This document shows positions 38,558-41,956 of a stretch of 64,000 nt of DNA, piece by piece. Below the pieces are notes generated by a model. That model ran no database searches. It was not told the DNA's origin and worked only from the letters and a program-made list of their open reading frames with translations. Within the stretch, counting starts at the first letter, position 1, and each line of letters begins with the position of its first letter. Both the position numbers and the translations under genes were made by a program. The stretch comes from Ciceribacter lividus (GTDB lineage: Bacteria > Pseudomonadota > Alphaproteobacteria > Rhizobiales > Rhizobiaceae), in the NCBI RefSeq assembly GCF_003337715.1, contig NZ_QPIX01000001.1, positions 364,682-428,681 on the forward strand. Direction: 5' to 3'.

Positions 38558-39433
38558 GTGAGTGAAATCCGCCTCTACGTAACCGTCACCGAAAAAGTGG
38601 CGAACGACATCCTCGAGCTGATGACCAACTTCTTCGGCGAGGAGGATTACGCGATCGCGACCACCGAGGTCGACGAGAAGAACGACGTCTGGGAAGCCTC
38701 GATCTACCTGATGGCGGAGGAGGAGGCGGAGGTCCACGAACGCCTGCGAGAAATGCTCGCCGAAGATTTTTCGTCGCTCGAGATCGAGCGCGAAGTCATC
38801 CCCGACATCGACTGGATCGCCAAGTCGCTCGAAGGACTGACGCCGGTCCGCGCCGGGCGCTTCCTCGTCCACGGCTCGCATGACCGCGACAAGGTCCAGG
38901 TCAACGACCTCGCCATCGAGATCGACGCCGGCCAGGCCTTCGGGACCGGCCATCACGGCACGACGGCGGGATGCCTCGAAATGATCGCCGACGTTACGCG
39001 GGCGGAGCGCCCCCGCAATGCGCTCGACCTCGGCACGGGAAGCGGCGTTCTGGCGATTGCCGTGCGACGCCTGCTGCCGATCCCGGTGCTTGCGACCGAC
39101 ATTGATCCGATCGCGGTCCGGGTCGCCAAGGAAAACGCGCGCCGAAATGGCATTGCTACCGGCATCGAATTCCGGGTCGCTCCCGGCTTTCACTCCACCG
39201 CTTTCGGCAAATACGGCCCGTTCGACCTGATCATTGCCAACATTCTCGCACGACCGCTGATGAAGATGGCGCCGCAACTGGTCGCCAACCTTTCGAGCGG
39301 CGGTTCGGTCATCCTGTCGGGGATTCTCGCAAGCCAGCGGTGGAAGGTGATCGCCGCCTATAACGGCGCCGGGCTGAAGCACGTCCGCACGATCTGGCGC
39401 AACGGCTGGGTGACGATCCACCTGCGCGGCTGA
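38558..39433 (+). CDS. prmA: Ribosomal protein L11 methyltransferase PrmA
   Basis: PrmA trimethylates ribosomal protein L11. GTG 38558, with AGGAAGG at 38545-38551, gives 291 residues. An N-terminal L11-binding domain (about 1-100) is followed by a linker. The SAM-binding domain has AFGTGHHGTTAGCLEM, NALDLGTGSGVLAIA and the catalytic-loop IIANILARPLMKMA. Length and blocks match the family. It is convergent to the small-RNA region that follows on the - strand. Confidence 0.95.
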   Translation: MSEIRLYVTVTEKVANDILELMTNFFGEEDYAIATTEVDEKNDVWEASIYLMAEEEAEVHERLREMLAEDFSSLEIEREVIPDIDWIAKSLEGLTPVRAGRFLVHGSHDRDKVQVNDLAIEIDAGQAFGTGHHGTTAGCLEMIADVTRAERPRNALDLGTGSGVLAIAVRRLLPIPVLATDIDPIAVRVAKENARRNGIATGIEFRVAPGFHSTAFGKYGPFDLIIANILARPLMKMAPQLVANLSSGGSVILSGILASQRWKVIAAYNGAGLKHVRTIWRNGWVTIHLRG

Positions 39434-39497
39434 GGCGGGTGGGGTCGAAGTTCTGCTGCATTGCAGTATTGCTTCTGATGCATGGCTCAATACAGGT

Positions 39498-39540
39498 CCC
39501 GAAATACGAAAGGCGGCATCCGGGGATGCCGCCTTTCCGA
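39498..39540 (-). terminator. Terminator of the CcsR/MmgR-like RNA
   Basis: GAAAGGCGGCATCC (39508-39521) and GGATGCCGCCTTTC (39524-39537) form a perfect 14-bp stem with a minimal loop. On the - strand it is followed by GTATTTCGG, a T-rich tail. It may also end prmA from the + side, though the + strand lacks a T-run beyond the stem. Confidence 0.75.
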
Positions 39541-39650
39541 TCAGATCGACTGATCGATGCATGGGCCTGGGAGGAGGAGAAGCCCATGCGTGTCGCGTAT
39601 TCCGGCACCGGCGCAGACCTGGGAGGAGGAGGAGGAGGGGCCTGCGCGGC
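39500..39650 (-). ncRNA. Small RNA of the CcsR/'cuckoo'/MmgR type, two CCUCCUCCC hairpins plus terminator
   Basis: Read on the - strand, just after the 57-residue gene at 39657-39830, there are three hairpins. Hairpin A pairs 39639-39647 with 39611-39619 (9 bp with one G-U) around a loop of repeated CCU ending CCUCCUCCC. Hairpin B pairs GCATGGGC with GCCCATGC (39582-39589 with 39559-39566) around UUCUCCUCCUCCCAG. The third is the intrinsic terminator (39508-39537). Two stem-loops with anti-Shine-Dalgarno CCUCCUCCC loops plus a terminator, behind a DUF1127-type gene, is the layout of the CcsR/cuckoo family; S. meliloti MmgR belongs to this kind. Exact ends are not known. Confidence 0.75.
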
Positions 39651-39656
39651 GTTCAA

Positions 39657-39830
39657 TCAGAATACGGAGCCTGTCGCCCGCTTGCGGCGGAGTTCCGCGC
39701 GGCTGGTGCCGATGGTTTCCAGCGTCTTGTCGTCCAGAGACAGCAGCGCGTCGTTGACATAACGGCTGGCCTGACGCTCGCGCGCTTCGATGATCCGCTG
39801 ATACGCCCTGCGAAGGAAAGAGCTTGCCAT
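39657..39830 (-). CDS. DUF1127-like small basic protein (57 residues)
   Basis: ATG 39830 on the - strand, 8 bases after AAGGA, opens a 57-residue frame. It begins MASSFLRRAYQRI and contains ARERQASRYVN, LLSLDDKTLETIG and SRAELRRKRAT. The pattern Arg-rich N-terminus, LDD, IG.SR.EL is that of DUF1127-like proteins, which are abundant in Rhizobiales. CcaF1 of Rhodobacter, a DUF1127 protein, is encoded just ahead of CcsR small RNAs and binds RNA. Here the same order is seen. A hairpin (39851-39867) lies in the 5' leader. Confidence 0.82.
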   Translation of the reverse strand: MASSFLRRAYQRIIEARERQASRYVNDALLSLDDKTLETIGTSRAELRRKRATGSVF

Positions 39831-39850
39831 CTTCGTATTCCTTTCGTGCC

Positions 39851-39886
39851 GGGCGGCGATCCCGCCCGTTCGATGAGTTGAATATA
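39851..39886 (-). promoter_or_regulatory. Possible -10 element and leader hairpin of the DUF1127-like gene
   Basis: On the - strand TATATT at 39881-39886 could be a -10 box about 50 bases ahead of the start; no good -35 stands at 17 bases. GGGCGG/CCGCCC (39851-39856 with 39862-39867) forms a hairpin in the leader, about 20 bases before the start codon. RpoH control, known for CcsR loci, cannot be shown here. Confidence 0.3.
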
Positions 39887-40120
39887 GTGACTCCGGCGCG
39901 GGGCGGCAGAGGGTAATCCCTCATGGGTGTTATGCGTTTTGTGCATGGATGGCTCGCCGCTTGGGCACTGCCCCTGCTGTTCTGAACAAAAACGAGGCAG
40001 GCTGCCGCTGATGTCGGCTGACGCTGCTTTGTCCCGCGTGCGCCGATCCGAGAAAACCTGATGAACCGGGCTCGGCTCTTGCTATAAGGCAAATCAGTCA
40101 TCAGTCAGAGCGAGTCCGCC

Positions 40121-41956
40121 ATGTTCCAGTCCTTCGAGGTGAAGTCCACTCCACAGTTCGGTCGCGCGCGTGTCGAGGCGCTACGGGCGCGGTTTGCCGC
40201 GCTCGGCATCGACGGCTTCCTGGTGCCGCGTGCCGACGAGTATCAGGGCGAGTATGTTCCCGAATCCGCCGAGCGGCTCGCCTGGCTCACGGGCTTTACG
40301 GGATCGGCGGGGCAGGTGCTGGTCACCATGGCGGAGGCGATCGTCTTCGTCGACGGCCGCTATGTGACGCAGCTTGCCGAGCAGGTCGATCCTTCCGTCT
40401 TCAAGGGCGGGGATCTCGTCGGCGAGCCGCCGCACAAGTGGATCGCGGCCCGCGCGCCGAAGAGGTTCCGCTTCGGCATCGATCCGTGGCTGCACACCGG
40501 CGCGGAAGTCCGACGGCTGGAGAAGGCGCTCGCGGAGAAGGACGGCGCGCTGGTGCTGCTCAGGGAGAACCCGCTGGATGCCCTTTGGACCGGCCGGCCG
40601 GCCGAGCCGCTCGGCGCCGTTTCGATCCAGTCGCAGTCCTATTCCGGTGTTCCGGCCGAGGAGAAGATCGCCCGCATTGCCCGGGAGCTCGGGGAGAAGG
40701 ACCTGTCCGCCGCCCTCGTCACCGATCCCTCGTCGGTCGCCTGGATCTTCAACATTCGCGGTAGCGACGTGCCGCATACGCCGCATCCGCTGGCCCGCGC
40801 GATCATCGAGGCGAACGGACATGCCGTGCTCTTCCTCGACAAGCGCAAGACGGGGCTCGAGGCGGAAACCTATCTCGCCGGGCTGTGCACGCAGGTCGAG
40901 CCGCTGGAGCTTTCGCCGCGGCTGCAGGCGCTCGCCGCCTCCGGTGCCCGCATCCTCGTCGATCCCGACCTGACGCCGTTCGCTCTCTCGGAACTGATCC
41001 GCGATCACGGCGGCACGGTGGTGGAGGGCAACGACCCGGCGAAGATCCCGCGCGCGGTCAAGAATACCGTCGAGCTCAACGGCTCGGCCGTCGCCCATGT
41101 GCAGGATGGCGTTGCCGTCGTCGAGTTCCTTTCCTGGTTCGACCGCCAGCGGCCGGGCACGGTGACGGAGATCGGTGCCATCCAGGCGCTCGAAGAGGCC
41201 CGCCGGCGGGTCGGCGAGCGCATGCAGAACCCGCTCAAGGACATTTCCTTCGACACGATTTCCGGCACCGGCGACCATGCAGCGATCATGCACTACCGGG
41301 TGACGACCGAGACCGACCGGACGATCGATTCCGGCGAACTTTTCCTCATCGATTCCGGTGCGCAATACGTGAACGGCACGACGGACATCACCCGCACCGT
41401 CGCCGTCGGGCCGGTGTCGGACGAGAAGAAGCGCTTCTTTACGCTGGCGCTCAAGGGCATGATCGCGATCAGCACGGCACGGTTCCCGAAGGGGACGCGT
41501 GGCTGCGACCTCGATCCCCTTGCGCGCATCGCGCTCTGGAAGGCGGGGGCGGATTTCGCCCACGGAACCGGCCACGGCGTCGGCTCCTATCTTTCGGTTC
41601 ATGAGGGGCCGCAGCGCATTGCAAGACTTTCGACGCAGGAACTGCTGCCGGGCATGATCCTCTCGAACGAGCCCGGCTACTATCGCCCCGGCGCCTTCGG
41701 TATCCGCATCGAAAATCTCGTCTATGTGCGGGACGCCGAGCCGGTCGAGGGCGGCGACATGCCGATGCTCGGCTTCGAGACGCTGACCTATGTGCCGATC
41801 GACAAGTACCTCGTCGTCACCGACCTCCTGACGGCGGAGGAGCTCGACTGGCTCGATGCCTATCATCGCCGCACGCGCGAGGAGCTGATGCCGCTCATCT
41901 CGGATGAAGAGACGCGGGCCTGGCTCGAACGGGTGACCGAGCCGTTCAGCCGATGA
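40121..41956 (+). CDS. pepP: Xaa-Pro aminopeptidase (M24B)
   Basis: This metallopeptidase removes N-terminal residues before proline. The 611-residue product has two creatinase-like N-terminal domains (about 1-310) and a C-terminal pita-bread catalytic domain. The metal ligands are in IDSGAQYVNGTTDITRT (two Asp), HGTGHGVGSYLSVHE (His), LSNEPGYY (Glu) and RIENLVYV (Glu). The three-domain form of about 600 residues resembles eukaryotic-type aminopeptidase P1, common in Rhizobiales. The last 11 bases overlap the convergent azlD gene. Confidence 0.94.
   Translation: MFQSFEVKSTPQFGRARVEALRARFAALGIDGFLVPRADEYQGEYVPESAERLAWLTGFTGSAGQVLVTMAEAIVFVDGRYVTQLAEQVDPSVFKGGDLVGEPPHKWIAARAPKRFRFGIDPWLHTGAEVRRLEKALAEKDGALVLLRENPLDALWTGRPAEPLGAVSIQSQSYSGVPAEEKIARIARELGEKDLSAALVTDPSSVAWIFNIRGSDVPHTPHPLARAIIEANGHAVLFLDKRKTGLEAETYLAGLCTQVEPLELSPRLQALAASGARILVDPDLTPFALSELIRDHGGTVVEGNDPAKIPRAVKNTVELNGSAVAHVQDGVAVVEFLSWFDRQRPGTVTEIGAIQALEEARRRVGERMQNPLKDISFDTISGTGDHAAIMHYRVTTETDRTIDSGELFLIDSGAQYVNGTTDITRTVAVGPVSDEKKRFFTLALKGMIAISTARFPKGTRGCDLDPLARIALWKAGADFAHGTGHGVGSYLSVHEGPQRIARLSTQELLPGMILSNEPGYYRPGAFGIRIENLVYVRDAEPVEGGDMPMLGFETLTYVPIDKYLVVTDLLTAEELDWLDAYHRRTREELMPLISDEETRAWLERVTEPFSR

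Follow-up and report, generated by a model that had tools for sequence, protein, structure and literature searches.

A candidate anti-Shine-Dalgarno RNA and an LsrB-type promoter box kept around an exchangeable small open reading frame in Ciceribacter lividus and its relatives

The window analyzed here, a 64,000-nucleotide stretch of the Ciceribacter lividus genome (4.52 Mb in 32 contigs), contains a small minus-strand locus between two plus-strand genes: what we take to be a prmA-like gene (38558..39433), convergent with the locus and a marker of its syntenic place, and presumably a pepP-like gene (40121..41956), divergent from it. Read along the minus strand, the locus begins with a putative LsrB/VtlR-type box, TGCACAAAACGCAT (TGCA-N6-GCAT; 39932..39945), recognized by its sequence pattern and genus-wide spacing, and a -10 element of the rhizobial sigma-70 type, CTATAT (39882..39887), from which transcription would be expected to start near 39875. 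A 57-codon open reading frame (ORF; 39657..39830), from an ATG at 39830 to a TGA ending at 39657, encodes an arginine-rich protein of 57 amino acids with a distantly DUF1127-like C-terminal half, and the nearest named record fetched, from Rhizobiales bacterium AFS003181, has a small protein 98% identical to it. Behind the ORF lie hairpins A (39606..39651), B (39559..39589), and C (39538..39556) and an intrinsic terminator (39508..39537), the last evident in sequence, fold, and alignment. A simple scan of 39400-40120 yielded no second promoter-like site, a weak result given that the scan found zero promoters there.

Two further stretches caught our attention. Between the terminator and prmA, at 39450-39487, is a second TGC/GCA-rich stretch (ATGCATCAGAAGCAATACTGCAATGCAGCA on the minus strand), and by eye several relatives within the genus have a comparable one at the same place; it may represent a further LysR-type site or belong to an antisense start. 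Folding of the putative 5' leader gives a CGGGCGG/CCGCCCG hairpin at 39850-39868, near which, by eye, other stems occur in some relatives.

An earlier note on this DNA had described a minus-strand gene of 57 codons, two hairpins with CCUCCUCCC loops, and a perfect 14-bp terminator, and sequence and fold bear out all of these. Hairpin A has a core stem GCGCAGGCC/GGUCUGCGC and a 19-nt loop, (CCU)5 CCC; the note had called its run of five CCU units expanded, and the close relatives L048 and L019 have three. Hairpin B, the conserved core of the RNA according to fold, covariance model, and relatives, consists of the stem GCAUGGGC(UU)/(AG)GCCCAUGC enclosing the loop CUCCUCCUCCC. Hairpin C (39556-39538), a third hairpin that the note had not listed, is found by both fold and covariance model, with a stem CGAUCAG/CUGAUCG and a loop that is not C rich. 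The 14-bp inverted repeat of the terminator forms 13 pairs around a 4-nt loop in the fold and is followed by a weak U tract, UUUCGUAUUUCG. The minimum free energy of the 157 nt from 39656 to 39500 is -79.2 kcal/mol, compared with -50.05 +/- 3.47 for 200 dinucleotide shuffles (z = -8.4), none of which was as low. Across both strands of the genome CCTCCTCCC occurs at 64 sites and its reversed pattern at 80, so with no enrichment the motif count was dropped as evidence; because CCTCCTCCC alone is not rare, the case for this RNA is built on structure, position, and conservation.

Conservation was followed with a covariance model, R1, covering hairpin B to the terminator and made from 17 of 26 sequences, leaving out the window clade, near-copies, and a sequence from another family (L043). 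The model finds 39595-39505 in the window at 38.5 bits (E 3.6e-7), the sole match in that genome at E 0.001, and its low score there, relative to a maximum of 99.6 bits, goes with a hairpin B stem that is wholly different in the window clade; the window's relative L019 scores 32.4 bits. Matches comprising hairpin B and the terminator occur in 58 of 60 genus genomes, including 55/55 good ones, and the two misses are a genome in which the protein gene sits at a contig end with just 26 bases behind it (G018) and one that is 88% complete (G030). R1 also matches the terminator more weakly on the other strand, as at 39448-39540 (+) in the window (25 bits). In an alignment of 63 matches (57 distinct rows; L048 and L150 seem to be the same record, and two other-strand matches, L024 and L028, minus, remain inside the pairing counts), 98.3% of cells pair and both partners vary in 10 of 20 pairs, a covariation reached by 0/500 shuffles and favored by the fitting of the alignment to the structure. 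Of the 62 loci searched for that alignment, L019 fell below threshold. A plain MAFFT alignment of 17 rows gave 97.1% pairing and six pairs changed on both sides, a number that 10 of 500 shuffles reached, and further pair types in these rows were no better than shuffles (346/500).

Of 61 same-strand matches, 60 have CCTCC in the loop of hairpin B; the remaining one (L142, in genome G218) has kept the stem and lost the C-rich loop. Of 29 loci that have a window-type ORF and offer enough sequence, 10 carry a CCTCC motif upstream of hairpin B; one of these is L062 (G120), a deep branch with three C-rich stretches, the third of them in the terminator loop. The motif of hairpin A is not general among relatives. 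The earlier note had staked its reading on conservation of both loop motifs in relatives, which is what we see for loop B and not for loop A. One alternative is that the hairpins are merely the 3' end of a small-protein mRNA, stabilizing and terminating it with no action in trans. The terminator does belong to the structure, as this alternative would have it, but a loop that stays nearly constant as the stems change speaks against it.

Comparison with described RNA families gives a partial identity. At gathering thresholds Rfam has zero matches in the window, and both candidate families fall short of them: ar14 (RF02344) reaches 31.5 of 58.8 bits (E 4e-4 in 551 bases) and CcsR1 (RF02791) reaches 14.5 of 65.3 bits. 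The E value for ar14 in the whole genome is 8e-4, and sub-threshold ar14 matches (E 1) appear in 3 of 14 unrelated control genomes as well. The window genome has two ar14 copies above the cut-off, and the RNA of L062 scores 39.3 bits with the ar14 model. Two other weak ar14 matches were set aside: C7:237202-237296 (L054) was left unclassed, and C13:4418-4519 (L056) starts just 3' of a coding region and looks like chance.

The cuckoo family is characterized, in the accessible part of its description, by a variable number of CCUCCUCCC hairpin modules with variable stems (PMC3927594), and the accessible text on ar14 gives it three hairpins, each with a CCUCCUCCC loop. The RNA at this locus fits the broad sense of cuckoo, with CCUCCUCCC loops and with stems and module number that vary. 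It resembles ar14/NfeR1 in its C-rich CCUCCUCCC loops and variable stems, and L062 shares with ar14 a C-rich stretch in the terminator loop. Unlike ar14, the window has two CCUCCUCCC hairpins and most relatives have one, and the window RNA would lie toward the 3' end of a transcript that also encodes a protein. As for MmgR (ar8), which the available portion of the literature describes as having an anti-Shine-Dalgarno stretch in a loop and as regulated by NtrC and AniA, the loop stretch is alike; no such family is among the Rfam matches up to E 10 in the 551 bases searched, a null result that counts provided Rfam includes an ar8 model. The earlier note had proposed a CcsR, cuckoo, or MmgR type. 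What survives of this is a cuckoo/ar14-kind anti-Shine-Dalgarno RNA behind a small-protein gene, for which the conserved loop and covarying stem argue; the score for CcsR proper does not sustain that part, and nothing points to MmgR.

The note had also called the protein DUF1127-like, a label without a Pfam DUF1127 match behind it, the link coming solely from profile-profile comparison. The window protein has zero Pfam or NCBIfam matches, and neither it nor five relatives reach the Pfam DUF1127 cut-off (PF06568, 23.3 bits); the relatives' proteins give sub-threshold matches only, to unrelated families. A PF06568 search of the genome returns six other genes. Compared by hhalign with these six DUF1127 proteins, the family gives 91.7% probability over 24 columns, a figure without a negative control, and the profile of the 57-aa family also matches a true DUF1127 gene of the genome (E 7.6e-4). 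These profile comparisons suggest that the protein is distantly akin to DUF1127. AlphaFold2 on the single sequence predicts three helices (pLDDT 87.8, pTM 0.57), and a PDB fold search with that model returned zero matches at E 0.001 or better. In 12 of the 12 pairs printed, synonymous changes per site outnumber nonsynonymous ones, some pairs having few changes (2 versus 1, 3 versus 3). Diverged versions of the protein, 51-54% identical to the nearest query, are found in L135, L136, and L165, and in the first two the LDD core common to DUF1127 is altered and the box and RNA are kept. At another locus (L123; G125:C91:8225-8717), the small-protein profile matches three times in tandem within about 500 bases.

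This distant kinship matters for a second alternative, that this is a CcsR/CcaF1-type locus proper, in which the small protein would be an RNA-binding DUF1127 protein needed to mature the RNA behind it. As far as the available text describes them, Rhodobacter CcsR1-4/CcaF1 and the CIN1 arrangement (a DUF1127 gene with a CcsR-like RNA) have C-rich hairpins and a single terminator behind a small-protein gene, an order that the window shares; this and the two profile results above are in its favor. Against it stand the missing Pfam DUF1127 match and the low CcsR1 score. A further difference lies in the promoter, which for CcsR is of the RpoHI/RpoHII type in the accessible part of the source, whereas that of the window looks like sigma-70 with an LsrB-type box, and the ORF appears exchangeable. 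DUF1127 proteins of A. tumefaciens are given as 47-48 and 72-102 aa in the portion of the literature available, unlike the 57 aa of the window protein.

According to the accessible text, the NfeR1 promoter has a binding site for LsrB, TGCA-N6-GCAT, at -72 to -60 (PMC10746234). The window box has this pattern 58 nt before the -10 element, matching the published NfeR1 site. Judged from sequence only, this is an NfeR1-type promoter with a putative LsrB site at about -72 and, as for ar14/NfeR1, a sigma-70 -10 CTATAT. All 25 genus loci examined (out of 26 genus genomes in which the protein search had a match) have TGC[AG]-N6-GCA 57-58 nt before the -10 hexamer, and mononucleotide-shuffled upstream regions contain the box anywhere in 3%; it is present in all of 20 further window-type loci. 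The full box with CTATAT has one site in the genome, the window locus. A relaxed pattern, TGCA-N6-GCA-N42..47-TATAT, written after the window locus and the DUF1127 site on contig C5 were already known, has three sites in 4.5 Mb and zero in the reversed control: the window locus, the DUF1127 gene on C5 adjoining an ar14 RNA, and an ar14 (NfeR1-type) RNA on C7. The box is also close to the general LysR-type palindrome. In L009 (900-2700), two DUF1127 genes directly follow an ar14 copy, and the first of the two has a window-like box-to-minus-10 layout.

In the part of the literature available, VtlR drives expression of small RNAs as well as of small (DUF1127) proteins. Known VtlR/LsrB targets (AbcR1, VrsA, atu1667, Brucella DUF1127 genes) have a similar promoter box, and unlike them the window would carry RNA and protein on a single transcript. 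The AbcR (ar15) RNA of the window genome is adjoined by an ORF of 306 aa that we take to be of the LysR type and that, from its place and length, is likely LsrB itself. The RNA behind the 57-codon ORF is probably switched on by LsrB.

The gene is more widespread than the RNA. The 57-aa profile has matches in 110 of 151 family genomes and 79 of 109 genera (E 0.001), a count that includes short or weak matches and some DUF1127 genes, one of them in the window genome. In 95 of 101 parsed loci the small gene faces prmA, an arrangement that would suit a third alternative, in which the RNA would restrict the convergent prmA message as an antisense to its 3' end. We give this alternative very little credence; L067 has gene and RNA with prmA absent from the flank fetched, and the constant part of the RNA is a C-rich loop, which suits Shine-Dalgarno sequences over a single neighbor. 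Many loci outside the genus have the gene and a short gap behind it, with the C-rich hairpin absent, an arrangement that counts in favor of a merely structural 3' end. By eye, genera without the RNA (L063-L112) often have GTGGAGGA well before the start codon of the small gene, a sequence that ar14-type loops might target.

On a PrmA tree of 90 rows (11 of the 101 loci were left out for too little PrmA), RNA presence was labeled by hand, with 27 rows as carriers, and the label needs two changes, which can be read as one gain (support 100/94) and one loss in Neorhizobium alkalisoli (L049). Neorhizobium alkalisoli has kept the protein gene without the hairpin, and its linker, GGAATACG, common to RNA-bearing loci, leads directly into the terminator, the picture that a deletion of hairpins B and C would leave. 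Outside the group labeled by hand as carriers, 61 rows, apart from L049 and a few rows at order level, have the protein gene and lack the RNA, a further point against a protein dedicated to maturing it. Several rows labeled as lacking the RNA weaken the count of one gain and one loss: L043 has a 6-bp hairpin with UUCUUCCUCCCU in its loop, L045 has UUUCCUCCCU behind the gene, L083 and L085 have unpaired CCTCCC, and L080 lies outside the RNA clade in the first tree and inside it in a second, on a long branch with weak support (80/52). The gene seems to be the older of the two, with the RNA a later gain behind it. Outside the RNA clade, the box is found within 230 nt in 35 of 71 loci, compared with 3% in shuffles, and therefore control through the box is probably older than the RNA.

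The finding that is new here concerns genomes of the genus that fail the search for the window-type protein and still carry the RNA. Among 60 genus genomes, 45 have the window-type ORF, 14 have a replacement, and one (G030) has neither, so that in 14/60 genomes the same RNA and the same kind of box surround an unrelated, selected ORF. The replacement has 51-54 codons, begins MTS, is mutually alike among the sequences listed, and is absent from the window genome. Whole-genome searches found no replacement ORF in genomes with the window type, and no window-type protein was found in the 14 replacement genomes, 8 searched whole (E 0.001) and 6 at the locus only. Where wider flanks were fetched (6 of the 14), the replacement ORF sits between prmA and pepP in 6/6. 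Two replacement sequences have no Pfam match. In the family sample the ORF is found in 1 of 199 genomes, and that one belongs to the same genus; the six carriers placed in a tree form one clade (93/88). A profile of the replacement searched against six frames of 12 ancestral-type loci gave nothing convincing (best E 0.15), so an origin by frameshift is not supported.

The replacement ORF differs between L132 and L133 by 19 synonymous and 0 nonsynonymous changes, and in 9 of the 9 pairs printed nonsynonymous changes per site are the fewer, a pattern that marks it as coding and under selection. The box keeps its six-base spacer in 12 of 14 replacement loci, and L131 and L146 have five bases. At the place of the -10 element, 58-59 nt past the box, 10 of 12 have TTAGAA, with TTATAT in L137 and TTATAA in L149; as TTAGAA makes a poor -10 element, the core promoter of these loci has changed. 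Judging from these comparisons, a new ORF has displaced the old one, with the box on one side and the RNA on the other both kept. That the ORF was replaced and the RNA kept argues against the protein as a dedicated partner of the RNA, and with the same RNA standing behind an unrelated ORF, we regard a CcsR/CcaF1-type locus proper as unlikely. A purely structural 3' end is similarly improbable, as the ORF that it would have served was replaced and the RNA stayed.

Comparison across genomes shows a predicted promoter with an LsrB-type box, a small ORF under selection, a structured RNA with C-rich loops, and a terminator, all set between prmA and pepP. In the reading that we prefer, and hold to be quite probable, the locus encodes a cuckoo/ar14-like anti-Shine-Dalgarno RNA from the 3' part of an LsrB-type transcript for a small protein whose ORF is exchangeable. 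One transcription unit on the minus strand would give a transcript of about 375 nt, from a promoter activated by LsrB as are those of NfeR1 and AbcR1. Cleavage, either past the ORF but ahead of hairpin A or in the linker that joins A to B (the place is a guess), would free an RNA of 100-150 nt, whose CUCCUCC loops could reduce translation of other mRNAs by pairing with their Shine-Dalgarno sequences. Because the ORF is replaced in relatives, the RNA and its LsrB-type control would be the constant output of the locus and the small protein an exchangeable passenger on a shared promoter. A search combining L11 methyltransferase, small RNA, and rhizobia found no paper, and in the papers retrieved on LsrB, DUF1127, sRNAs, and anti-Shine-Dalgarno motifs the locus goes unnamed in titles and abstract openings; supplements and most subscription papers lay outside this scope, so it may be listed already.

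When a small RNA lies toward the 3' end of an mRNA, it is usually seen as a partner or by-product of the gene concerned. The exchange of the coding sequence, with promoter box and RNA kept, is a natural experiment that separates the RNA from the protein, and it hints that the RNA is the most important part. We think it fairly likely that the locus is a regulatory chassis, in which an LsrB-type promoter and a 3' anti-Shine-Dalgarno RNA were kept as a unit and the protein passenger was replaced by an unrelated, selected ORF absent from other genera of the family sample, the RNA being the conserved product that outlived its host gene. The locus also offers a family-wide case of an RNA apparently gained behind an older gene, and it extends the LsrB/VtlR regulon by a predicted target with two outputs, a matter of relevance to the association of rhizobia and related bacteria with their hosts.
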